Source: a virus. From it: a DNA stretch of 24,446 nucleotides. Both the position numbers and the translations under genes were made by a program. The notes under the pieces are model-generated. The model was given only the letters and a program-made list of their open reading frames with translations. It had not been told where the DNA came from and ran no database searches. The DNA lies in IMG/VR virus record IMGVR_UViG_3300044624_002353, positions 1 to 24,446 of that record; one strand, given 5' to 3'. Each line of letters opens with the position of its first letter. Within the stretch, counting starts at the first letter, position 1. Positions 68-24,399 of this stretch are shown piece after piece.

Positions 68-556
68 ATGCCTAGAATATATTGTCGTACACCGTCTACT
101 GGAAAACCGTTGAATCTCATTTATCCAAATGTAACAACTTCCTATGCAACTATTCCTCTTGCAAATGCTCCGGATTATTCGGTGCCAGATCCTTCTGAAG
201 TTTATTCCGAAAGAGATCCTGACTTTCCCAGCAGAGCAATAATACCAGGAGAAATATTTTTCCTTACTCCGCTGTCGGCAGTTAACAAAAGTGATGCAGA
301 ACAATGGGTAGAAGTAATTCTTCTTACACAGGATGGCACGACTGTTGCTGTTGGACGAGCTGTTATTCCTGCAAGAGACACTGCATATATTCCCTTGCAG
401 GGTCGTAGCTTGCTCAAAACTGCCACTGAGGAACCTGCTGATGGCGACAGATTGCGAGTTCGTGCCAGTGCTGTTGATGTGATTGATGTATGGGTTGCAG
501 CAGATGAATCACCTGCCAGCCAGAACATAGGTGTCTTTACACCGGTGGTGCCATAA
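68..556 (+). CDS. Putative virion structural protein, 162 aa
   Basis: This protein is preceded by AAGGAG at 53-58, nine bases before the ATG, and its TAA overlaps the ATG of the collagen-like fibre gene by one base (taATG), so the two are probably translationally coupled. The N-terminal half is rich in Pro, Ser and Tyr ([19 protein letters not shown] near residue 7; [14 protein letters not shown] near residue 49). The second half looks like a small beta domain ([28 protein letters not shown]). There is no signal peptide or membrane segment. From memory, similar proteins with the [17 protein letters not shown] pattern occur next to tail-fibre genes of T4-like cyanophages, without a defined role. 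A fibre-attachment or baseplate-periphery role is inference from the neighbour. Confidence 0.7.
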
Positions 557-3500
557 TGGCTAAACTGTTATCAAACCGAGTCCAAACAACTCCACCCGCT
601 GATGCTGAACCAGATCGCACAGACTGGCTGGCACCGCAGGATGCAGAACCCAACTTAGGTGTTCCTGGAGCCAGCGGGCAAATTTTAGCATCGGGTGCTG
701 ATGGTTCTCGTTACTGGGTAGATCCAGGCGCAGGTGCAACTGGACCACAGGGCCCACAAGGACCGCGTGGACCACAAGGTCCCACAGGATCAACAGGTGC
801 AACTGGACTCACTGGAGCAACAGGGTTTGAAGGGGCAACAGGATTTAGTGGGGCAACAGGATTCGAGGGGGCAACTGGAGCAACAGGATTTGAGGGGGCA
901 ACTGGATTCAGTGGTGCTACCGGACTAAATGGTTCTACTGGTGCAACCGGAACGGGTGGTGCCACCGGCGCCACCGGACTTCAAGGTGCAACTGGAATAG
1001 CTGGTTCAAATGGACTCGACGGAGCCACCGGAATTACCGGGGCAACTGGTGATATTGGCCAAACTGGAGCTACTGGGTTAGATGGAGCTACCGGAGCAGG
1101 TGCCACTGGAGCTACTGGGTTAGATGGAGCAACTGGAGCAGGCGCCACTGGCGCCACCGGTCCACAAGGCCCACAAGGCCCAGCAGGCTCAGGAGCTACT
1201 GGTTTTGATGGAGCTACAGGTGCAACTGGAGCAGGTGCCACAGGTGCCACAGGACCACAAGGACCACGCGGGCCACAAGGAGTAAATGGATTTGTTGGAA
1301 CTACTGGAGCTACAGGATCAGAAGGACCACAAGGACCCACTGGACCCACAGGACCACAAGGACCCACAGGACCCACAGGACCACAAGGACCTGCTGGAAC
1401 TTCTGTGACCATTATCGGATCAGTACCTGATGTTAATGTAGTACCACCTGGTAATCCTCAGACCACACTAAATGCTGCTTTTCCTGGTGCAATAGCCGGG
1501 AATGGTGTTATTGATACAGCCACTGGTAATTTATGGGTATACGACGGAGCTCTTTGGGAAAATGTGGGTCAAATCACAGGTCCGCAAGGAGCTACTGGTG
1601 TTAACGGTCTTACAGGTGCAACTGGCCTAACTGGTACTACTGGACTAGAAGGATCAACGGGCCCACAAGGACCACGCGGTCCTCAGGGATTCTTCGGATC
1701 TACCGGACCAGATGGAGCCACTGGAGCTACTGGTTTTGATGGATCTACAGGTGCAACTGGAGCAGGTGCCACTGGTGCTACAGGACCACAAGGACCACAA
1801 GGACCAGCAGGTGCAGGTAGTACAGTACCGGGACCACAAGGACCACAAGGACCACAAGGACCCATTGGACCGCAAGGACCCACAGGACCCATCGGACCCA
1901 TTGGACCACAAGGACCACGTGGACCACAAGGACCACAAGGACCACAAGGACCACAAGGACCCATTGGACCACAAGGACCACAAGGACCCATTGGACTAAC
2001 AGGTGCAGGTGCTACCGGAGCAACCGGACCACAAGGACCACAAGGATCAGAAGGACCACAAGGACCCACAGGACCACAAGGACCACGTGGACCACAAGGA
2101 CCCATTGGGTTAACTGGACCACAAGGACCCACAGGACCGCAAGGACCCACAGGACCACAAGGACCACAAGGACCACAAGGACCACAAGGTTCTACAGGCT
2201 CAGGAGCTACTGGAGCAACAGGACCACAAGGACCACGCGGACCACAAGGTGAAGGTGCTACCGGAGCAACTGGACCACAAGGACCACAAGGACCACAAGG
2301 ACCCATTGGACTAACAGGTGCAGGTGCCACTGGAGCAACAGGACCACAAGGACCACAAGGACCACGTGGACCACAAGGTGAAGGTGCCACCGGAGCAACA
2401 GGACCACAAGGACCACAAGGACCCATTGGACCAACAGGTGCAGGAGCCACTGGAGCAACAGGACCACAAGGACCACAAGGACCACAAGGTTCTACAGGTG
2501 CAGGAGCCACTGGAGCAACAGGACCACAAGGACCACAAGGACCACAAGGACCCATTGGCCCAACAGGTGCAGGAGCTACCGGAGCAACTGGTTTAACAGG
2601 ATCCACTGGACCACGTGGACCACAAGGACCACAAGGACCCATTGGACCCATTGGACCACAAGGACCACAAGGACCAACAGGTGCAGGAGCCACTGGAGCA
2701 ACAGGACCACAGGGACCGCAAGGACCACAAGGACCACAAGGTGCAGGTAGTACAGTACCAGGACCACAAGGACCACAAGGACCACAAGGACCCATTGGAC
2801 CACAAGGACCACAAGGACCAACAGGTGCAGGAGCCACTGGAGCAACAGGACCACAGGGACCGCAAGGACCGCAAGGACCCATTGGACCAACAGGTGCAGG
2901 TGCTACTGGAGCAACCGGACCACAAGGCCCACAAGGACCCATTGGACCAACAGGTGCAGGAGCCACTGGAGCAACCGGACCACAAGGACCACAAGGCCCC
3001 AATGGAGCAACAGGATTAGGATCAACGGGTGCAACTGGACTAACAGGATCAACTGGGCCATCTGGAGGACCAGTAGGCTCAACCGGAGCAACCGGACCAC
3101 AAGGACCCACAGGACCACAAGGACCACAAGGACCCACTGGACCACAAGGACCCACAGGACCACAAGGACCACAAGGACCACTGGGATCAACGGGTGCAAC
3201 TGGACTAACAGGATCAACTGGGCCATCTGGAGGACCAGTAGGCTCAACCGGTGCAACTGGACCACAAGGACCACAAGGACCCATCGGACCACAAGGACCA
3301 CAAGGACCGCGTGGACCACAAGGACCACAAGGACCCATTGGAGCAACAGGATCCGGTGCAACGGGTGCAACCGGACTAACAGGATCAACTGGGCCATCTG
3401 GAGGACCAGTAGGCTCAACCGGTGCAACTGGACCACAAGGACCACAAGGACCGCGTGGACCACAAGGGCCTACAGGATCAACTGGGCCATCTGGAGGACC

Positions 3501-4542
3501 AGTAGGCTCAACCGGTGCAACTGGACCACAAGGACCACAAGGACCAGCAGGTGCAGGTGCCACTGGAGCTAGTGGTGCTACAGGACCACAAGGAGCAACT
3601 GGTGCAGGTAGTGCAGTACCTGGACCACAAGGACCCACAGGACCACGTGGACCACAAGGACCACAAGGACCAGCAGGCTCAGGTGCCACTGGAGCTAGTG
3701 GTGCTACAGGACCACAAGGAGCAACCGGTGCAGGTAGTGCAGTACCTGGTCCACAAGGACCACAAGGACCCATTGGACCACAAGGACCAACAGGACCACA
3801 AGGCCCACAAGGACCAGGCGGCATTGGACCACAAGGACCACAAGGACCCATTGGACCACAAGGACCACAAGGACCAGCAGGTGCAGGTGCAACTGGTGCT
3901 GCAGGACCACAAGGACCACAGGGACCACAAGGACCCATTGGACCACAAGGACCACAAGGACCGTCGGGTGATCCAGGCAGCGACACTAATATAAATGCTG
4001 TAGATACCGAAACCAACGCAAGTTATTATCCTGTGTTCGTATCTGCTACTGGGGAAAGTGTACTTGCTCGTGCCGACAATGCTGGTCTGACCTACAATCC
4101 CTTTACCAAGACCATGACAACAACCAATTTTGCTGGTACTGCTACTACAGCACTATACGCCGACTTGGCAGAACGATACTTGGCAGATGCAGAATATTCT
4201 CCAGGTACCTTGTTGGAGTTTGGTGGTGATCAAGAAGTTACACGCACAGCTACCAGTCACAGTGTACGTATAGCTGGAGTGGTATCAACTGATCCTGCTT
4301 ACCTGATGAACTCTGGTTTGGAAGGAACTTTTGTAACCAGTGTAGCATTGACAGGTCGAGTGCCGTGCAGTGTGGTTGGTACAATTAGTAAAGGTGATCG
4401 ATTGGTAGCAAGTGATATTCCGGGTGTGGCCACAGTGATGGATACTGCTCGATATCAGCCAGGATCAATTGTGGGTAAAGCTCTCGAGGATTACAATTCT
4501 GAAGATGTGGGAATTATAACAGTAGTAGTAGGAAGATTGTAA
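556..4542 (+). CDS. Collagen-like tail fibre / virion adhesin, 1328 aa
   Basis: Residues 1-58 are a non-repetitive head ([20 protein letters not shown]). From about residue 60 to 1140 the protein consists of Gly-X-Y triplets (mostly [15 protein letters not shown]), broken once at about 282-341 by a non-collagen module ending in [15 protein letters not shown]. The C-terminal ~185 residues are globular and contain [20 protein letters not shown] and VALTGRVPC, a module I recognise from the ends of many phage fibres and related surface proteins. Phage collagen-like proteins form trimeric stalks, so this is most likely a long fibre with a C-terminal trimerisation or receptor domain. The triplet phase is broken repeatedly by GAG and GSG steps. 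Codon use is very repetitive (ggaccacaa units). The gene ends just before a strong hairpin terminator. Whether it is a tail fibre or a head or whisker fibre cannot be decided from sequence. Confidence 0.88.
736..3975 (+). repeat. Collagen Gly-X-Y coding repeat tract
   Basis: About 3.2 kb of in-phase 9-bp-based repeats (variants of ggaccacaa and ggagcaact), interrupted at about 1400-1575 by unique sequence. The tract gives long spurious open frames on both strands. Its high identity makes length change by slippage or recombination, and misassembly, plausible. Confidence 0.9.
3046..3513 (+). repeat. Four identical 39-bp repeats inside the collagen gene
   Basis: An identical 39-base block starts at 3046, 3211, 3382 and 3475, each encoding [13 protein letters not shown]. 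The starts are 165, 171 and 93 bases apart, all multiples of three, so recombination between any two copies would keep the reading frame. The block contains an extra Gly (PSGGPV) that breaks the triplet phase. Confidence 0.85.
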
Positions 4543-9037: not shown

Positions 9038-9802
9038 ATGGCAGACCAAACCCTAGATCCACTAAAAAAACAACTGATTGATTATGTACAACTACAGTTA
9101 GGCAGTCAAATTGTAGACGTTGAATTAGATCCTGCACACTACGAAGCAGCGTATCAGCGCACAATTGGTACTTACCGTCAGCGTAGTCAAAATGCCTACG
9201 AAGAAAGCTATAGTTTTATGCAGTTGTTGGACAATGTAAACGAATACACTTTGCCACAAGAAGTCACACAAGTACGGCAAATTTTTCGACGCACAATTGG
9301 ATTGAGCACCGGTGGCAGTGCCAGCAGCTTTGATCCATTTGGCGCAGCAACATTAAACGTGTATCTGCTGAACTTTAACCAGTCGGGCGGCAGCCTGGCT
9401 ACTTACGACTTTTATCAACAATATGTGGAGCTTGCTGCCAGAATGTTCGGCGGATACATCAACTACACATTCAATCCTGTTACCAAAAAACTACAGCTGA
9501 TTCGTGACCCTAAAGGCACTGGAGAAGTTGTCCTGCTGTGGACTTATAATCTGCGTCCAGAAATTGTATTACTGAGCGACTTTCAGATCAGTCAATGGAT
9601 TCGTGACTACATGGTGGGTGCTTGTAAGTACATCATTGGTGAAGCTAGAGAAAAATTTGGTACTATTGCTGGTCCACAAGGCGGCGGAACCTTAAACGGT
9701 GCTGCTATGAAGTCGGAAGGTCAAGCTATGATGGACAAATGCATAGAAGACCTCAAGTTGTATGTAGACGGTTCGCAACCATTGACCTTGGTAATCGGCT
9801 AA
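9038..9802 (+). CDS. 13: Neck protein (T4 gp13-like), 254 aa
   Basis: The start is supported by TAAGGAG about seven bases upstream. The sequence follows the gp13 family seen in T4-like aquatic phages: [20 protein letters not shown] near residue 31, a NEYTLPQEV segment, then KKLQLIRDP and [10 protein letters not shown] strands, and a C-terminal helical part with [14 protein letters not shown]. In T4, gp13 with gp14 makes the collar that seals the packaged head and receives the tail. This protein is somewhat shorter than T4 gp13 (309 aa). In T4, gene 13 is followed directly by 14 and 15; here those two lie upstream on the opposite strand, with an early-type gene between. The stop overlaps tail-to-tail with the GIY-YIG gene. 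Confidence 0.85.
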
Positions 9803-10434
9803 TTGTTTTTGCGAGCAGCATCACGTGCTCGCTTTTTAGCGCCAATGATTGCTCGAGTTGCGGCTGTTTGGATTCTTCCTTCTTGATTACTAGTGGCACC
9901 TCTGCCAATTTGCCATCCGTTGTTTAAGAAATTATTAACTTCTGTTAAATTGACTCGCATTGAATCTGTACTATTATGGATCCATTTTTGATTTTTAGTG
10001 GTACCTTTTTTTGCATTAACTTGTGGCGAGTATGTTTTGCCTAAATTAATTTGCATTAGAGTTTTTTTAGTAGAGTTTGTGTGTTTAAATCCTGCATTTG
10101 ATGCAATTCTTTTTGCAATAGTTTTAGGGCTTTGTTTGACTCCTGCTGCCCCATCGCCACCATCTGTTAAATTTCTAAGTATTCCTGTGCCTAAATCTTT
10201 TCGACCGTACCATCTTATTAGCCTACGTTCGATTGCTAATGCACCGATGTTAGTTAAGTTTGATTCTACAATAACGATACGATGATAATCTGTTGGGACA
10301 ATAACATTATGTTCTTTTTCCCACGCCCTGTATCGTTGTCCTTTACCGATATAATACGGTGTTAGATTACCTTTGCGTAGATATACGTAAACATAGAAAC
10401 CGGGCGGATAAGTAGACAGGCTGATGCTCCTCAA
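9799..10434 (-). CDS. GIY-YIG homing endonuclease, 211 aa
   Basis: The nuclease domain is N-terminal: YVY at residues 14-16, YYIGKG at 27-32, arginines R34 and R36, the metal-binding glutamate most likely E69 in [11 protein letters not shown], and N88 in NLTDGGDG. The C-terminal half carries short DNA-binding-type motifs common in homing endonucleases, including [14 protein letters not shown] and a GWQIGRG element, and is basic and Asn/Lys-rich. The start is unclear: TTG at 10432-10434 has no ribosome site, while AGGAG lies within the first codons and would place a CTG (10420-10422) at good spacing. No ATG exists near. It lies opposite to, and between, gp13 and dexA, a usual place for a free-standing intron-less homing gene. 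It is probably a selfish element that spreads by cutting the unoccupied gp13-dexA junction. Confidence 0.87.
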
Positions 10435-11057: not shown

Positions 11058-11692
11058 TTATTGGAATTTGCGGCCTGATTGGGTCCGGCAAAGACACTGT
11101 AGCTGACTACTTGGTAAACGTACACGGGTTTAGGCGTGAAAGCTTTGCAGGCACTTTAAAAGATGCTGTGGCTGCTGTGTTTGACTGGGATCGTACCTTG
11201 TTGGAAGGACGTACCAGAGCCTCCAGAGAGTGGCGCGAGCAACGCGATGAATGGTGGAGCCGCCGTTTAGGACAAGACATTACACCACGCTGGGTGCTGC
11301 AATACTGGGGCACAGAAGTCATGCGCCGCGGATTTCACGACGATATTTGGATTGCTAGCATTGAAAACAAAATACGCAACAGCAGCGACAACGTGGTCTT
11401 AAGTGATTGCCGTTTCCCCAATGAAATTGCCAGTATTCGCAACGCTGGTGGGCGTATTGTGCGCACTTGTCGTGGACCAGATCCCGAATGGTTTCATGCT
11501 GCCGAAGTGGTAAATCGTGGTCCTACACTGAATTTGTCCTGGGCCAGTAATCGATCTGTACTAGACACATTCAAGGTGCATGCCAGCGAAACTGCCTGGG
11601 TAGGAACTGATTTTGACCATGTGCTTGACAATAATCATTCAATGGATGACTTGTATGCTCAAGTAGATCGCATTGTCAAAAATCAGGAGTAA
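11054..11692 (+). CDS. 1: Deoxynucleoside monophosphate kinase (T4 gp1-like), 212 aa
   Basis: The Walker A loop is GLIGSGKDT (residues 7-15), followed by an LKDAVAAVFDWDR helix, an R-rich region (EGRTRASREWREQR), RRLGQDITPRWVLQYWGTEV and a SDCRFPNE segment typical of phage dNMP kinases. The enzyme phosphorylates dNMPs to dNDPs with ATP, supplying precursors for phage DNA synthesis; in T4, gp1 handles dGMP, dTMP and hydroxymethyl-dCMP. The length is slightly below T4 gp1 (241 aa). It overlaps dexA by ATGA and is expected to be co-transcribed from the sigma70 promoter. Together the two genes form a nucleotide-salvage pair: DexA releases dNMPs and gp1 rephosphorylates them. The 3' end overlaps the HNH gene by 17 bases, tail to tail. 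Confidence 0.93.
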   Translation: MIIGICGLIGSGKDTVADYLVNVHGFRRESFAGTLKDAVAAVFDWDRTLLEGRTRASREWREQRDEWWSRRLGQDITPRWVLQYWGTEVMRRGFHDDIWIASIENKIRNSSDNVVLSDCRFPNEIASIRNAGGRIVRTCRGPDPEWFHAAEVVNRGPTLNLSWASNRSVLDTFKVHASETAWVGTDFDHVLDNNHSMDDLYAQVDRIVKNQE

Positions 11693-12020
11693 TATCACCT
11701 GCACGCCAGGGTAGTTCCAATCTGACAATTTCAGCAATACAGTTCAAGCACACTGTTTTTAAGTTTCGTGTTTCGCAGTTATTTAGATCCCCGTCTACAT
11801 GATACACAGTCAACTGAGTATGGTGTCTAGCCCGAAACCCACATCTATCACATGTGGGTTTTTTCTTGTAACCGGCTGTCAGCCATCTGGGTCTGGCTGG
11901 TTTGATCTTTTTGTCTTGCCTAATACACACGTTACAACGACTGCGATAGTACAGTTTTTCACGGTGATAGCCATTTATAGCAGCGGGATTTTTGTTGCAA
12001 ACCTTGCATAGCGGTCTCAT
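11676..12020 (-). CDS. HNH endonuclease-like zinc protein, 114 aa
   Basis: Four CxxC pairs are visible (C5/C8, C29/C32, C57/C60, C91/C94), which could bind two zinc ions. Between the last two pairs is HVDGDLNN...RNLKTVC (H74, D76, N80-N81, N86), the H-N-N core of the HNH nuclease fold with its beta-beta-alpha metal element. Similar small proteins occur in many aquatic T4-like phages. It lies opposite the structural genes between gp1 and gp18 and, with the GIY-YIG gene, brackets dexA-gp1. The ATG is only five bases after an ATAAATA motif and no ribosome site is seen, so the message may be leaderless. A homing nuclease or a resident DNA-processing nuclease are both possible. Confidence 0.82.
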   Translation of the reverse strand: MRPLCKVCNKNPAAINGYHREKLYYRSRCNVCIRQDKKIKPARPRWLTAGYKKKPTCDRCGFRARHHTQLTVYHVDGDLNNCETRNLKTVCLNCIAEIVRLELPWRAGDITPDF

Positions 12021-18256: not shown

Positions 18257-18745
18257 ATGACCCGTAAACTCGAATCCTTGTTTGATCTCCCTTCCTCTGT
18301 GTCGGATGAGCTCACTGACCCAACTACCCAAGAACAAACCAGTCTAGAAAATTTACCTGACACCTTGGCTGCACTCGACAAAATCGAAGCAGCTCTTCCG
18401 GCAGTAAAGGGACTGGAATCATCTGATTCTGAAATGGACGAGCTGGCCGGAATGGCAGTGAAAGAATTTCACAACTTGCTGGACCTAGGCATGAATGTAG
18501 ATAGCCGGTATGCTAGTGAAATTTTTGGAGTAGCTAGCCAAATGTTAGGGCATGCAATCACAGCCAAAACTGCCAAGGTAAACAAAAAACTACGCATGAT
18601 CGATCTGCAGTTAAAGAAAGCCAAGTTAGATCAAGACACCAACAAAGACGATGCATTGCCGGTTGGGCAAGGTACAGTGCTGGATCGCAACGAATTGTTG
18701 GCCAGTTTGCTAAAGCGCAATGAATCAGATACACCAAAAAAGTAA
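18257..18745 (+). CDS. 16: Terminase small subunit (T4 gp16-like), 162 aa
   Basis: The length equals T4 gp16 (164 aa). The acidic N-terminal tail (FDLPSSVSDELTD), central helical hairpin (MAVKEFHNLLDLGMNVDSRY, then SEIFGVASQMLGHAITAKTA and NKKLRMIDLQLKKAKLD) and polar C-terminus follow the gp16 architecture, with a central coiled coil that forms the ring recognising DNA for packaging. Similarity is by pattern rather than by a sharp motif, so confidence is moderate. The large subunit gp17, which usually follows, is not in this window. A GTAAATA lies four bases before the ATG, too close for an ordinary leader, and there is no clear ribosome site. Confidence 0.68.
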   Translation: MTRKLESLFDLPSSVSDELTDPTTQEQTSLENLPDTLAALDKIEAALPAVKGLESSDSEMDELAGMAVKEFHNLLDLGMNVDSRYASEIFGVASQMLGHAITAKTAKVNKKLRMIDLQLKKAKLDQDTNKDDALPVGQGTVLDRNELLASLLKRNESDTPKK

Positions 18746-18775: not shown

Positions 18776-19387
18776 ATGAAAACATTTGCACAATACCTGA
18801 CAGAAAGCGAAAAAACCTTTGATTATCGTATCAAAATCTGCGGAGATGTTGGGGCTGACCTCTTAAAGATGTTTAAGGAAAAACTTAAAAAGTTTGATCC
18901 TGTAAAGATTTCAGATCCAAAGACCACACCTGTACAGGCCAAGCCTGTAGACTTTCCCGGACAAACTAATCAACGAGTGACCATGATTGATGGCAGTTTT
19001 AGATACCCAGCAACGCCTCCGCAGATTCAACAGATGGCAGAGCTTTGCGGAGTACCTGCTACTGATATTTGTATCAATGACTTGCATTGGTCAGAAGGAA
19101 TGGATCAAGAGTTACTGGGCATTGAAGAAGAAAATTCTCCTTCCTTGCTGGAAAAAGATTACCCAGCTAACTCAGCAGAACAGAACAAGCTCAAGAAAGA
19201 ATACGCCGACAGCAATCAGCAGATAGTAAAAAACTCAGCTGAAAAAGCCACATGGACTGTAGCTGGCGGCCGTACTCCACCAGCTGTCACAACAAACGAT
19301 TTGCCACAGGGCGTCAAGAGTCCTATGTCAACAATAAAACGTCCACCACGTCCAGCCACTGGATTTAAATCTCAAGGAAAAAAGTAA
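18776..19387 (+). CDS. Putative internal head protein with capsid-targeting-like leader, 203 aa
   Basis: The protein begins MKTFAQYLTES. T4 internal proteins IPI-III begin MKTYQEFIAE-A, a capsid-targeting peptide removed by the prohead protease gp21 after (L/I)-x-E. The match in spacing and character (M-K-T-aromatic-x-x-aromatic-L/I-x-E-small) suggests this protein is drawn into the prohead and cut after residue 10. The body has a compact part (residues about 15-105: FDYRIKICGDVGADLLKMFK, PVDFPGQTNQRVTMIDGSFR), then a Lys/Gln-rich and Pro-rich disordered tail. I recognise the general type from aquatic T4-like phages but no function. It is the first gene after a late-type motif; the TAA is followed immediately by the next ATG. 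Confidence 0.72.
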   Translation: MKTFAQYLTESEKTFDYRIKICGDVGADLLKMFKEKLKKFDPVKISDPKTTPVQAKPVDFPGQTNQRVTMIDGSFRYPATPPQIQQMAELCGVPATDICINDLHWSEGMDQELLGIEEENSPSLLEKDYPANSAEQNKLKKEYADSNQQIVKNSAEKATWTVAGGRTPPAVTTNDLPQGVKSPMSTIKRPPRPATGFKSQGKK

Positions 19388-22179
19388 TGGATATCTATCA
19401 AATCATGGCTCGACTTGACGCCATTGGCTCAAAGAAAAATCTGACAGAAAGTCAGGATATGATGCAACCTGTTGCTGAAGGTCGCTTCAAAGAATTAGAT
19501 ATAATTCTGCAGGATTTTCCTGAGGATGTGGAAGAATTTAAACGCAGTGGCGATTTAGGCAGTAGATTTTATGAGGCCCTGGTTAACCATTATCTGGATT
19601 CGGGCGAAATGCCTTATGGCGTAGCTAAAGCACGCACTGGCGATCCGTATGACTGGGTTGTAAATCGGTTGGCTAGCGAGTTGGGTCTGGACGAAGCATC
19701 TGCAAGAAACCGCGGCGATGTTGCTGAAGCCAAGACTTCTAAGCCTGACTTTTTAGATCTTGACAAAGATGGCGACAAGAAAGAGCCAATGAAAAAGGCA
19801 GTTGCTGATAAGAAAAAAGGTGCAGTTAAAGAAAGCGAACAGAATATGAGTCGCGCTGCCAAAGGTTATGAAAAATATGGCAAACAAGGTATGCAGGCAT
19901 TAGCCAAGGCTGGTAAAGAAGGTAAAAGTCTTGATCCCGTCAGAAAAAAATACGACAGGTATGACGAATCACTTAGTCAAGATGACTTTGACCAAGCCGC
20001 AATTGCCCAGGGCAAACGTGGACGTGATGCTCGTGACAATCCTTCAAAAGCAGTAGCGGCAGCTAAACGTAGTCCAGCAGCTCAAGATGCACGTGCCAAA
20101 CTTGACAAAGTACGTCAATCTGAAATCAAAGTCAAAGAGTCAGCAAAACCAGACTTCTTGGACATGGACCAAGATGGCAACAAGAAAGAGTCAATGAAGA
20201 AAGCTGTCCAAGACAAGAATCGTGTTAAGAAAGTCGACGAAGCCGGCAAAAATCTATTCCCAGGCACACCTGAGTACGAATTGCGTTTTGGCAAAGACGA
20301 TGCTTCTAGTGCGTTTGATAAGAAAAAGATTTCAACAGGTACAGTGTATAGCCGCAAGCATCACGAAGAGCCTGAAGCAGCCGACAACGATGATACACCA
20401 AAGAAAAAAGGCCGCCCAGTTGGCGCCAAACGACGCCTAGGAGCCAAAGGACCCAGTGTTAACAGTTTACTGTTAAAAGGCAAAGGCGGTTTGAAAGAAC
20501 ACGATATCGATATTCAAGATAGAGGTGAATACGATCGCGAAGGCGATATGGCCTTGAATCAAGTGCACCAAATTGCAGACGCTGCTCGAGAATTGCATGC
20601 TATTTTGGCATCAGACGATAATCTGCCGGAATGGGTACAAAGCAAGATCACCAAGGCCTTGGATTACATTGACACAGCCAGAGATTATCTAGGTGCCGAA
20701 GGCGAAATGGATCGCGAAGAATTACCTGAAATTGCTCCTATCGTTGGGGCTCTTGCCGGTCGTGCATTGGCTGGAGCAGCTGGCGCAGGATCAACAGGAC
20801 AAGCAATTGGGAGCCTAGCTGGAAGAGCAGTTGCAGGTGCAATGAACGGCAACGATGAAGTTGAAGAAGCTGGATATTCAGCCAAATCAGCTCGTGCAGG
20901 TAAAGACATTGGCAAGCCCGGCAAGAACTTTAACAAGATTGCCAAAGGTGCTGCTGAACGTTACGGCAGCAAGGCTGCTGGTGAACGTGTTGCCGGCGCA
21001 GTGTTAAACAAACTGCGTGCCAAGGAAGGCGTTGAAGAAGGACCCGACACCGGAATTGGATCTAAACTACCAAAAAGCGACATCGAAACTTTTGGATTAC
21101 AAAAAGGACGACCATACAAAATCAATCCTCCTCAAGATTTCAAACCAGGCGATAGAAAACGTGCTGTTCAACAACTTATTCCCACTCAAGACAAGAAAGA
21201 TCACATTCGCAGTCGATTGGGTAAACATGTAGCTCCTGTATTGCCCGAACAAGATGTCGAAGAAGAATCTACTAACAAAAAAGATGTACCGTTTGACGGA
21301 CCATATCGTAAAAAAGGCGATGACAAAGACCAATTCGGCAACAAGATCAAGCATGTTGCTCGTCATGCCGCACGCCAAGGTTTAGCAGACATGACCACAG
21401 CTGAACTCAAGGCTGAACTCAAGCGCAGAAGTCAAGTAGAAGAAGAGTCTACTGATACTCAAGACCAGCATGCAGAAAAGGCCGGCAAGAAAGTCACCAA
21501 AGATCTTGAGTACGACATGAAGCACAAGGGCAAAGACGATGCCAAGGCAGAAAAGGCCGGTAAGAAAGTCACCAAAGATATCGAGTATGACGACAAGAAA
21601 GACAAAGAAAAGAAAGTCGACGAAACCACAGTGTCGGGTTCAGTAGCTACAGGTGGCGATGCTCCTAAGAAAAGCAAAGGCGGAATGCAGTTTGGTCAAG
21701 GTGTCTACGAAGGCGCTATTGCAGAAAGTTTTGACAAGAAGCTGGGCGGAATACTCACCGAAGGCATGAGTGTCAATGTCAGCACAGACGATACAGGCAA
21801 AAAGAGTATCACGGTCAATGCCACAGATGCTGATGCTGATTCCTTGGGCAACATGCTGAAGATGGCAGGTTTGTTCTCTAGCGAAGGCTACAGCAGAACA
21901 TGCGAAAGTTGCCACGGCATACACGAAGCAGGTGCTTGTCAAGCAGAGCAAGTTGCTGAAGAATTGGCCAACAGCCCTGACGAAGTGTATGCTGACAAAG
22001 ACTACATGACACAAACACTATCGGGTGGATTAAATGGTCCCAAGACAACAGGTCAAACAACAGGGCCTGTTGTGAATCGTCAAGATAGTCGTCAAGGTGT
22101 AATGGCTGAAGCTGAACGAGTTGTTGAGCAATCAGAATCACGCTTGTGGAATCTTTACAAGCAATACGAGAAAAAATGA
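19387..22179 (+). CDS. Large head-associated protein, 930 aa, multi-motif, Lys/Asp-rich
   Basis: Its ATG shares a base with the preceding TAA. The N-terminus ends in LTE-S at residues 19-22, a prohead-protease-type site, and more such sites occur inside (IAE-S at 778-781, LTE-G at 790-793). In order: an acidic helical start; two copies of KPDFLDxDxDGxKKExMKKA (about 119-138 and 254-273) with an EF-hand-like Asp loop; an AT-hook-like KKKGRPVGAKRR (339-350); an Ala/Gly-rich glycine-zipper stretch (about 450-487); a repeated AEKAGKKVTKD (two copies, encoded about 21474-21580); a Ser/Thr region leading to GGMQFGQGVYEG; a CxxCx3Hx4C cluster (C839, C842, H846, C851); and a C-terminal LSGGLNGPKTTGQTTGP with a WNLYKQYEKK end. 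Proteins with the same ending exist in T4-like cyanophages as unnamed structural proteins. It is probably packaged in the head; its action is unknown. Confidence 0.75.
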   Translation: MDIYQIMARLDAIGSKKNLTESQDMMQPVAEGRFKELDIILQDFPEDVEEFKRSGDLGSRFYEALVNHYLDSGEMPYGVAKARTGDPYDWVVNRLASELGLDEASARNRGDVAEAKTSKPDFLDLDKDGDKKEPMKKAVADKKKGAVKESEQNMSRAAKGYEKYGKQGMQALAKAGKEGKSLDPVRKKYDRYDESLSQDDFDQAAIAQGKRGRDARDNPSKAVAAAKRSPAAQDARAKLDKVRQSEIKVKESAKPDFLDMDQDGNKKESMKKAVQDKNRVKKVDEAGKNLFPGTPEYELRFGKDDASSAFDKKKISTGTVYSRKHHEEPEAADNDDTPKKKGRPVGAKRRLGAKGPSVNSLLLKGKGGLKEHDIDIQDRGEYDREGDMALNQVHQIADAARELHAILASDDNLPEWVQSKITKALDYIDTARDYLGAEGEMDREELPEIAPIVGALAGRALAGAAGAGSTGQAIGSLAGRAVAGAMNGNDEVEEAGYSAKSARAGKDIGKPGKNFNKIAKGAAERYGSKAAGERVAGAVLNKLRAKEGVEEGPDTGIGSKLPKSDIETFGLQKGRPYKINPPQDFKPGDRKRAVQQLIPTQDKKDHIRSRLGKHVAPVLPEQDVEEESTNKKDVPFDGPYRKKGDDKDQFGNKIKHVARHAARQGLADMTTAELKAELKRRSQVEEESTDTQDQHAEKAGKKVTKDLEYDMKHKGKDDAKAEKAGKKVTKDIEYDDKKDKEKKVDETTVSGSVATGGDAPKKSKGGMQFGQGVYEGAIAESFDKKLGGILTEGMSVNVSTDDTGKKSITVNATDADADSLGNMLKMAGLFSSEGYSRTCESCHGIHEAGACQAEQVAEELANSPDEVYADKDYMTQTLSGGLNGPKTTGQTTGPVVNRQDSRQGVMAEAERVVEQSESRLWNLYKQYEKK

Positions 22180-22937
22180 AGAAACTAGCAGATTATATCG
22201 CTGAATCCGAATCCCCAGTCGCTGGGGATCGATTTGCTATCAATATTCGAGAAGAATGCCTGATTGAATCGCATGTGGTTGATGTGGTTGAAGATGGCAT
22301 TGTGATCGAAGGCGACGAACGCTTGTTGGCCCTGTTGGAAGAATACGGCTTTCAGCTGGAAACTGTTCGTCGATACGGTGCTGTGGGTTCCAGTGCAGGA
22401 ATGGGATTTACCACAGCCGAATCAGATGTCAACGATGCTGGTAGCGACAACAGCGACCGAGAGTTACGCTTGATCCGCAGCCGTGCCGGACTGGCCGAAA
22501 CAGCACCCGATCAGCCCGAAACTGATGCTGACCATAACGATCCCTTGGCAGCCAAGGCAGCAAACCTTGCACCAGTGGGTGCCATTGGATCAGAACTTGA
22601 TGAAGATGGAGTTGATCCAGTAAACGCACAAGGACAAGATGCAGAAGATCTGCATGGCCAAGCCACATCAAGTGTTGCCGGTGCTGTAGACGAAGCTGAA
22701 TACCAAGGTCGTGAAGTCAAGTTAGGCAAGCCTTTTTTAACACCAGGCGGTCCAAAGAAACGTAGCGTTTATGTAAAAAATCCTAAAGGCAACATAGTCA
22801 AGGTCAACTTTGGCGATCCTAACATGCGTATCAAAAAGTCAAATCCGGCACGTAGGAAAAACTTCAGGGCCAGACATAACTGTGCCAATCCGGGTCCTCG
22901 CACATCGGCTCGTTATTGGTCTTGTAGAGCTTGGTAA
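22176..22937 (+). CDS. Putative head-interior or assembly protein with capsid-targeting-like leader, 253 aa
   Basis: The ATG at 22176 overlaps the previous stop (ATGA); a GTG ten codons earlier is possible but unlikely. It begins MKKLADYIAES, again fitting the capsid-targeting pattern with I-A-E-S at the cleavage point (residues 8-11). The next ~60 residues form an acidic alpha/beta part (CLIESHVVDVVEDGIVIEGD, LEEYGF). The middle is Asp/Ala-rich and probably disordered, and the last ~60 residues are a strongly basic module: KRSVYVKNPKGNIVKVNFGD, then PNMRIKK, KNFRARHNC and ARYWSCRAW. I recall this C-terminal module (FGDPNM...RARH.C...ARYWSC) in many marine phage proteins without known function. 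The two cysteines and many Arg/Lys residues suggest nucleic-acid binding, which is inference. Confidence 0.72.
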   Translation: MKKLADYIAESESPVAGDRFAINIREECLIESHVVDVVEDGIVIEGDERLLALLEEYGFQLETVRRYGAVGSSAGMGFTTAESDVNDAGSDNSDRELRLIRSRAGLAETAPDQPETDADHNDPLAAKAANLAPVGAIGSELDEDGVDPVNAQGQDAEDLHGQATSSVAGAVDEAEYQGREVKLGKPFLTPGGPKKRSVYVKNPKGNIVKVNFGDPNMRIKKSNPARRKNFRARHNCANPGPRTSARYWSCRAW

Positions 22938-22956
22938 TAAAAAAAAGGAATCATAA

Positions 22957-23235
22957 ATGCCACAAGCAAACGTATATACATCAGTATCAGCACAAGCCTG
23001 GTTAACAGACAAATGTAAAATTGCCACAGGAAATACGGCTGTGACTTTTAACGTAGATCTCGTCTATCCAACTGCCACTGGCAATTTGTACGGTAATTCA
23101 GTTTCTATTCCTGCAAACTACACACAAACAGTATTTGTGGGTGTAGGTAATAAACTTACTGTAGCCGGTGCTAACTTTACAGCACAAGAAATTGGAACAA
23201 CCAGTTCAGGCAGTTACTCAGTACGACAGGTATAA
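22957..23235 (+). CDS. Small beta-rich protein, 92 aa, unknown function
   Basis: An AAGGA ribosome site in an A-rich leader (about 22944-22950) precedes the ATG. The protein is composed of Thr/Val/Asn-rich alternating segments (KIATGNTAVTFNVDLVYPTA, YTQTVFVGVGNKLTVAG) typical of a small beta sandwich. There are no cysteine pairs, signal peptide or targeting-like leader, unlike its neighbours. It could be a capsid decoration or minor structural protein. No family is recognised. Confidence 0.62.
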   Translation: MPQANVYTSVSAQAWLTDKCKIATGNTAVTFNVDLVYPTATGNLYGNSVSIPANYTQTVFVGVGNKLTVAGANFTAQEIGTTSSGSYSVRQV

Positions 23236-23243
23236 GGTCGCAC

Positions 23244-23627
23244 ATGCGAGCCAGAGAATTTGTTTCTGCTAGAATAACCGAAACAGCAGATGCCAAGATT
23301 TCCCGCAGGCTGCAAGCGGCCACTCGCGGCCTAAATGTCTATAGTGATGCTGAACGCTGGAACGGTGATTATGTATTGAGTCGTTTGGGCCAAGCAGTGG
23401 CCTCAACAGATGGTACGTTTGTACCTGATATTGATATGAAATCGTGGATAGGTAAAAACAAAAGTACTCATCCATACACTCCAGAAGAACAAGCCATGCT
23501 GAAAATGGCGTACCGGGCCATTGGTGCTGACTATACGGATCTCAACGGCGGCAACATGAACAGTGAAGAAATGTCAGAAGTCAATCGAGTTAGCCCAGTG
23601 CAGGGATTTAAAGGTTATCCCAGATGA
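23244..23627 (+). CDS. MRAREF...FKGYPR family protein A, 127 aa, capsid-targeting-like leader
   Basis: It begins MRAREFVSARITE-T, with the protease-type I-T-E at residues 11-13, and ends SPVQGFKGYPR. The same two end signatures are found in the next gene, although the bodies differ. The central part has YSDAERWNGDYVLSRLGQAV, then DIDMKSWIGKNKSTHPYTPE and EQAMLKMAYRAIGADYTDLN, well-formed helices with conserved-looking aromatic residues. I recall similar proteins (SDAER..GDY..YRLG; SWIGK.KSTHPYT) in many aquatic phages without a function. The stop overlaps the next ATG (ATGA). It is probably a packaged or head-assembly protein. Confidence 0.7.
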   Translation: MRAREFVSARITETADAKISRRLQAATRGLNVYSDAERWNGDYVLSRLGQAVASTDGTFVPDIDMKSWIGKNKSTHPYTPEEQAMLKMAYRAIGADYTDLNGGNMNSEEMSEVNRVSPVQGFKGYPR

Positions 23628-24028
23628 GAGCCAGAGAATTTATTCGCGAACAACGAGATTTACCCCCTGAAAGCAAAGGACCCATGCGTTACACTTATGT
23701 GATCCCAGGGTTGAGTGCTTCCGACCCTTATGGAAACTATCGTATGGGTGTGGCAATGGCACGTGCCAGAAGCGATTATGCCAACGAACTCAGCAGTGAA
23801 AACGAAGGAATTGATCCCTACAAGCCTGAATGGTCTGCTGAAACTGCGTTTGGTGAACATGCTGTTGTTGTGGGATCTAGCCCGCACATTGCACAATTGA
23901 TTGACCGTGCTTTGGCAATGACTGGAACACCCGGCGGCAAGCGATTAGTCAGCAGTGCTGACAGTGACGAGCCTGCTTTTGTAGCAAACAAAAGTCCTGT
24001 TCGGGCCTTTAAAGGATACCCGAGATAA
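23624..24028 (+). CDS. MRAREF...FKGYPR family protein B, 134 aa, capsid-targeting-like leader
   Basis: It begins MRAREFIREQ, with I-R-E at residues 7-9, and ends SPVRAFKGYPR, matching the ends of the preceding protein. The body reads YTYVIPGLSASDPYGNYRMG, VAMARARSDY, TAFGEHAVVVGSSPHIAQLI, DRALAMTGTPGGKRLVSS, a small alpha/beta protein with a conserved-looking D-P-Y-x-x-Y-R-x-G-V-A motif. As with its partner, I recall homologues in aquatic phages of unknown role. The start overlaps the previous gene (ATGA) and the end shares a base with the next ATG, so it belongs to the same operon. The two genes look like a matched pair. Confidence 0.7.
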   Translation: MRAREFIREQRDLPPESKGPMRYTYVIPGLSASDPYGNYRMGVAMARARSDYANELSSENEGIDPYKPEWSAETAFGEHAVVVGSSPHIAQLIDRALAMTGTPGGKRLVSSADSDEPAFVANKSPVRAFKGYPR

Positions 24029-24399
24029 TGGCCAATAACCCGCCACCATACGACAATATTACTGGCATCTCTCGTGCTGTAATGAAAGACAACGCACAAG
24101 AAACCATTGGCGCATACAATGGCGTTGCTAGACCCAGCGAATTAGTAGTCAACCAACTCACACAAGATATCTATGTAGGCAACGTCAATGGAAATCTAAA
24201 TTTGGTCGCATACGGATCTGGTGTTACCAGCACCACAACATTCAACCCGCAGTTCACTGACGGATCAGGCACATTTGCTGGCGGTACTACCACAGCATCC
24301 TATGTGCGTATGGGTCCGCTGATGTATATACATGTGTATGTGGATTTTACAGGGGTTACCAACTTTGGCAGCACAGGATATCAGATTACACTGCCCTAA
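24028..24399 (+). CDS. Fibre- or capsid-surface-type structural protein, interrupted by an in-frame TAA
   Basis: The N-terminus (YDNITGISRAVMKDNAQETI, then RPSELVVNQLTQDIYVGNVN) is a pattern I recognise from the start of structural proteins of T4-like cyanophages, followed by a beta module (FTDGSGTFAGGTTTASYVRM, then HVYVDFTGVTNFG-GYQITLP). The reading frame stops at TAA 24397-24399, but the next 15 codons to the window edge, in the same frame, encode PAINTFRLAGGSLHQ, which continues the ITLP-x-PA...GG-LHQ pattern expected of this module. The gene is therefore probably truncated by a nonsense change or a sequence error, or is read through. Without the continuation the product is 123 aa. Confidence 0.65.
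   Translation: MANNPPPYDNITGISRAVMKDNAQETIGAYNGVARPSELVVNQLTQDIYVGNVNGNLNLVAYGSGVTSTTTFNPQFTDGSGTFAGGTTTASYVRMGPLMYIHVYVDFTGVTNFGSTGYQITLP

Follow-up and report, generated by a model that had tools for sequence, protein, structure and literature searches.

Are the products of a gene cluster at 18776–24028 of a phage genome fragment loaded into the head by N-terminal leaders of the phage T4 kind, and cut there by the prohead protease? The fragment, hereafter the window, is the whole 24,446-nt stretch analysed (IMG/VR virus record IMGVR_UViG_3300044624_002353, positions 1–24,446), and its source is a large uncultured T4-like phage. The cluster probably encodes T4-type internal head proteins that are capsid-targeted and protease-processed. 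In the proposed mechanism, the N-terminal 9–21 residues would be leaders that target the capsid by binding to the core of the prohead, a gp21-type prohead protease would cut after (L/I/V)xE, and the bodies would be released inside the head; we infer the targeting, the cleavage and the final location from sequence. The window matches ~103.5–128.0 kb of a longer IMG/VR contig, G001 (160,607 b), at 100% (16,468 b) and 99.96% (7,978 b), and related contigs reach 342–353 kb.

Five plus-strand genes begin where the first-pass annotation had placed them (18776, 19387, 22176, 23244 and 23624), with the N-termini it gave. Four have leaders resembling those of the T4 internal proteins (IPs), each closing with (L/I/V)xE: a 203-aa protein (18776–19387; MKTFAQYLTE/S, codons 18776–18805), a 253-aa protein with an acidic N-terminal half (22176–22937; MKKLADYIAE/S, 22176–22205), a 127-aa protein (23244–23627; MRAREFVSARITE/T, 23244–23282) and a 134-aa protein (23624–24028; MRAREFIRE/Q, 23624–23650). 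The fifth, a modular protein of 930 aa (19387–22179), has the predicted LTE/S at residues 19–22, ending a leader (LTE21/S) encoded by 19387–19449, and about 13 internal sites; ~14–18 gp21-type sites are predicted in all. The leaders do not extend to a whole operon, as had been claimed: the 92-aa protein within the cluster (22957–23235, plus strand; no Pfam or PHROG family match) and the adjoining gene at 24028 carry none. The related claim that unrelated bodies share leaders stands in part, since the leader does recur on unrelated bodies but the 23244 and 23624 proteins are paralogues (27% identity, E 2e-7).

Conservation within the leaders can be read against T4 IPIII, where residues 4 and 7 control targeting and residues 8 and 10 processing (PMC9026906). 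The leaders at 18776 (F4, Y7, L8, E10) and 22176 (L4, Y7, I8, E10) both have the features of a T4 capsid-targeting sequence (CTS), being hydrophobic or aromatic at 4 and 7, hydrophobic at 8 and Glu at 10. Across 24 sequences of the 18776 family, Y7, L8, E10 and S11 are invariant and K2 nearly so; the conserved positions are thus those singled out by T4 genetics. MKxFxxYLxES is retained in relatives down to 31% identity, and the leader is the fourth most conserved of 193 11-residue segments. Relatives of the 22176 protein retain MKxxxxY(I/L)xE, with E10 missing in 1 of 12. The MRA-type leaders of the two paralogues differ, EF(I/V)xE aligning with T4 residues 6–10. In their joint family (23 sequences aligned) M1, R2, E5, F6 and E9 are invariant and the leader is the second most conserved of 126 9-residue segments. 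The aligned Glu is displaced four residues further on in the 23244 protein and one relative (L085); the 23244 site is ITE13, in a longer leader like that of T4 IPI, and the relatives mostly have E9. Leaders are kept while bodies diverge.

Could this likeness arise by chance, or at the DNA level from a translation start context or a recombination tract? The motif is short, and the 23244 and 23624 leaders are not independent, their genes being paralogues. Against this, the pattern M[KR]x2-3[EDQ][FY][ILV]xE matches 3 of 1,131 ATG starts in G001, where 0.04 are expected when each N-terminus is shuffled, and 8 of 2,671 in the 352-kb relative G005 (0.07 expected), all eight at plausible gene starts; the genome-wide recurrence that the first-pass annotation had raised as a check is borne out. 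In 2.9 million viral contigs, MRAxEFIxE occurs in at least 120 stretches and the scrambled MRAxFEIxE in 10. The MRA leader codons also differ synonymously, so conservation acts at the protein level. Given the shuffle counts and synonymous codon variation, we reject chance and DNA-level origins as exceedingly improbable.

A gp21-type protease is encoded in G001, which removes the objection, foreseen in the first-pass annotation, that the genome might have no prohead protease; a PF03420 search of the 24.4-kb window alone gave no match because the window is a fragment. Between 10 and 14 kb left of the window start, G001 carries the portal (phrog_213), the protease (phrog_207), a protein in the scaffold position and gp23 (phrog_138), in the order gp20-gp21-gp22-gp23. 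The protease matches PF03420 (E 4.9e-28) and the T4 gp21 structure 5JBL (E 2.7e-13), with motifs GELDHP and SRGSG. Portal and gp23 are assigned by PHROGs, gp22 by position and site density alone (phrog_10922, a family with no assigned function). The gp23 junction, whose cleavage position we take over from T4, would read YLKE/NASAGSTVSGNIAT (YLKE/NASAG), and small leader proteins echo it: MRAQEFIKE/NASAGATSSGSVAT (MRAQEFIKE/NASAG) and MRANEFIKE/TASAGATTSGNIA. A comparable echo occurs in phage PA5oct, where EST35_0203 (L419:11322-12818) contains KVEE/TASAGASSAGGIASVAK, recalling the likely mature N-terminus of that phage's gp23. Also near gp23, the G001 gene at 96877 starts MKINQIVNE/E and is kinase-like (phrog_15752, E 1.6e-8).

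To quantify protease sites, we counted [LIVM]xE[GAS] in 147 non-overlapping G001 open reading frames (ORFs) against composition-preserving shuffles, with gp22, a known gp21 substrate, as positive control. The control ranks first (z 8.0) and the 930-aa protein second (14 sites, 3.4 expected, z 5.6–6.0), followed by the 587-aa product of a gene close to gp23, which contains GVAEG repeats. In PA5oct, gp22 again leads, and fifth place goes to EST35_0203, which is syntenic with the 930-aa protein; direct homology between these two proteins is not significant. Relatives of the 930-aa protein span 388–1,412 aa and all have 6–18 sites. Among them, 21.1% of BLAST segment ends lie within three residues of a site, a proportion that none of 300 draws attained; the corresponding figures are 9.9±1.1% for random positions and 12.1±1.1% for other Glu residues. 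Of 669 pairs of such segments, 84 are out of order. As the segments are not independent, the effect size here outweighs the count. Judged from these sequences, modules are shuffled between relatives, with their edges at gp21-type sites. Additional internal cuts in the 930-aa protein, and in the 22176 protein at the predicted VDE173/A, would yield small separate modules.

One such product would be the very basic conserved C-terminal module of the 22176 protein (22695–22934, plus strand; 80 aa, net charge +17, pI 11.3, phrog_7595), which could condense packaged DNA, a role with which its charge is compatible. The module is preceded by [LIVMT]xE/[AGSN] in 79 of 84 distinct copies (shuffled mean 7.1). 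These copies share ancestry; the residue before the Glu varies freely and the next one upstream stays hydrophobic. The T4-like phage C48C1 encodes a compact 105-aa protein (L440:5923-6240) that combines a leader with this module, MKKFKQYIDE/GCCEACKSLDEELELTE/AEYQGK...WSCRNW, which would be a convenient experimental model if cultured.

Beyond the window, the MRA leader is found on many bodies in uncultured phages, falling into 31 sequence clusters among the matches listed. Seven of those clusters have at least two members and 11 are singletons whose locus also carries a further leader gene; these 18 families are firm, and some of the remainder may be chance. One leader-bearing body is an ADP-ribosyltransferase (ART; PF03496, E 9.5e-13, L367:6643-7242) and another is ART-PolyVal-like, below cut-off. 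A fusion protein combines a kinase part (phrog_15752, E 8e-11) with GNAT and ParB-like parts seen by eye, and separate GNAT and ParB proteins likewise carry the leader. At L367:5135-7946 (minus strand), three successive leader genes with one-base overlaps encode a kinase/GNAT/ParB-like protein, the ART and a third protein without a name; together they look like an effector operon. On a 94-kb contig, G026, seven genes with MRA-type leaders lie in a 10-kb stretch (58.6–68.5 kb; locus L370 and flank); the bodies of the four that were read are mutually unrelated. The strict MRA-type DNA pattern is absent from T4, PA5oct, Atu_ph07, SCTP-2, Phosso, S-WAM2, HTVC008M and C48C1, and tblastn of the 18776 and MRA-type proteins against isolate phages gave no match. 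Neither MRAREF as a leader nor QGVAEG turned up in the papers searched, a set that lacks most subscription journals.

Indirect virion evidence comes from PA5oct EST35_0202, whose homology to the 18776 protein extends through the leader (31% over 94 aa, E 5e-13) and whose gene occupies the corresponding place in the gene order; its database entry calls it a structural protein and bears the note ESI-MS/MS (electrospray tandem mass spectrometry, MS). The leaderless gene at 18257–18745 (plus strand) anchors the synteny, its product being homologous to EST35_0201 (36% identity, E 8e-29). The idea of capsid targeting put forward at first pass has behind it a protease gene, a recurrent leader and an MS-annotated homologue. 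Several observations nevertheless weigh against internal head proteins. The MRA leader has no aromatic residue 4 of the kind used in T4 targeting. The protease-site motif is a short, degenerate one, different copies of a domain do not count as independent, and smaller phages of Pelagibacter and Roseobacter have the basic module too. The EST35_0202 leader, MKSFRDYYDAS, has no cleavage Glu; in T4, Asp at position 10 stops processing but still allows targeting (PMC9026906). When leaders are loosely defined, their presence shows no association with MS detection among PA5oct proteins (6/91 vs 17/295, p 0.47), and detection is itself weak proof of a structural role because the PA5oct MS list also has enzymes.

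Two other readings accept that the leaders are real. The leader proteins may be parts of the prohead core or scaffold only, degraded by gp21, leaving or remaining as fragments and playing no role in the host. The site density of the 930-aa protein does resemble that of gp22, gp21 dices core proteins in T4 (PMC9026906), and a Pfam and PHROG family search found no enzyme domain in the cluster bodies, the 930-aa protein included. The MS annotation of the 18776 homologue in PA5oct virions speaks against this, and ART, kinase and acetyltransferase bodies under the MRA leader in other phages are improbable as scaffold; we consider a pure core or scaffold role rather unlikely. Less probable still is that the leader, perhaps as a short amphipathic helix, directs its proteins elsewhere, to the membrane or a different structure of the phage, and that the terminal xE is incidental. 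Residues 4–11 of the 18776 protein are modelled as a helix, at low confidence there, and one T4 targeting determinant is absent from the MRA type, but neither the 23244/23624 alignment nor the 24 18776-family sequences show any variation at the terminal Glu, and leader junctions mirror that of gp23. Moreover, among the matches listed, 10 of the 13 contigs above 100 kb that bear a leader also encode gp21 (PF03420), including all nine above 140 kb; it is found in none of five leader contigs of 86–97 kb and none of seven scramble contigs, the last a weak control because they are mostly short.

If the cluster proteins are internal head proteins, the analogy of the T4 IPs and Alt makes ejection into the host plausible for some of them. 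A wider proposal is that a portable head-loading tag, MRAxEF(I/V)xE, is shared among large uncultured T4-like phages and has been grafted onto tens of proteins that are unrelated to each other, host-modifying enzymes among them, and that these phages also carry cassette polyproteins recombined at prohead-protease sites and cut inside the head; we hold the case for and against this to be evenly balanced. If true, a nine-residue tag would mark proteins loaded into giant T4-like heads, perhaps delivered into bacteria, and would predict injected effectors from sequence alone, turning many unnamed phage genes into a testable list. It would also show phages putting together their internal peptides from exchangeable cassettes, which the head protease cuts.

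Elsewhere in the cluster, residues 14–119 of the 18776 body form an alpha/beta domain in a fairly confident structure model, which has no meaningful match in the PDB and is similar only to unnamed phage proteins. A model of the 23624 family was of low confidence (pLDDT 50) and was set aside unused. The 23244 and 23624 proteins share a C-terminal tail, SPV(K/R/Q)(A/G)FKGYPR, ending FKGYPR in both; conservation of SPVxxFKGYPR suggests a second functional site. The gene at 24028–24399 starts MANNPPPYDNITGISRAVMKDNAQ and has a paralogue at G001 95774, shortly past gp23, starting MANSPPPYSNITGISRAAMKDNAQ. The window also encodes head-closure gp4, tail tubes, a neck protein and a tail sheath whose nearest relatives are in Phosso, Atu_ph07 and PA5oct. 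A 1,328-aa collagen-like protein (556–4542), with Gly-X-Y repeats and then a folded C-terminal part, is probably a fibre. Antisense ORFs amid the structural genes (9799–10434 and 11676–12020, both minus strand) appear by eye to be GIY-YIG and HNH homing endonuclease-like.

Among known systems, the T4 IPI/IPII/IPIII CTS (PMC9026906) is similar in its ~10-residue N-terminal leader ending (L/I)xE, with residues 7, 8 and 10 matching; IPI also has a long leader ending ITE, as at 23244, and here too the genome has a gp21-type protease. The cluster bodies are unrelated to the T4 IPs (no internal-protein family and no IPI/IPII/IPIII-like body was found for window proteins in Pfam and PHROG), but an IP-homologous body is no requirement for membership, because the T4 IPs themselves diverge in their mature regions. 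The MRA type is one residue shorter than the T4 leader, has no position-4 aromatic and is spread over many more families; this leader and the cassette polyprotein exceed the T4 description. T4 Alt, an ejected ART processed at ITE6 and LTE619 (PMC5694885), is paralleled by the leader-bearing ART (PF03496) and other modifying enzymes of related uncultured phages, although the window has no ART and the leader on the ART is of the MRA type. Like the core proteins gp22 and gp67 that gp21 dices in T4, the 930-aa protein is rich in predicted sites, second only to gp22; unlike them, it is built of cassettes that are shuffled and in some cases occur in other phages too, and its relatives are 388–1412 aa long. 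The ejection-protein propeptides of phiKZ and SPN3US (PMC5694885) likewise place identical N-termini on diverged, protease-processed head proteins, but their protease is only distantly related and both motif and leader differ. Polyvalent proteins (Iyer et al. 2017, PMC5512222) are phage proteins of several domains for which packaging and injection are predicted. Their domains include ART, GNAT, ParB and kinase, as do those of the leader proteins of related phages, whereas the 930-aa protein has no detected enzymatic domain. Most of their processing is ascribed to zincin or assemblin-like domains fused to them (PMC5512222), whereas here gp21-type sites join the modules and a leader is added.

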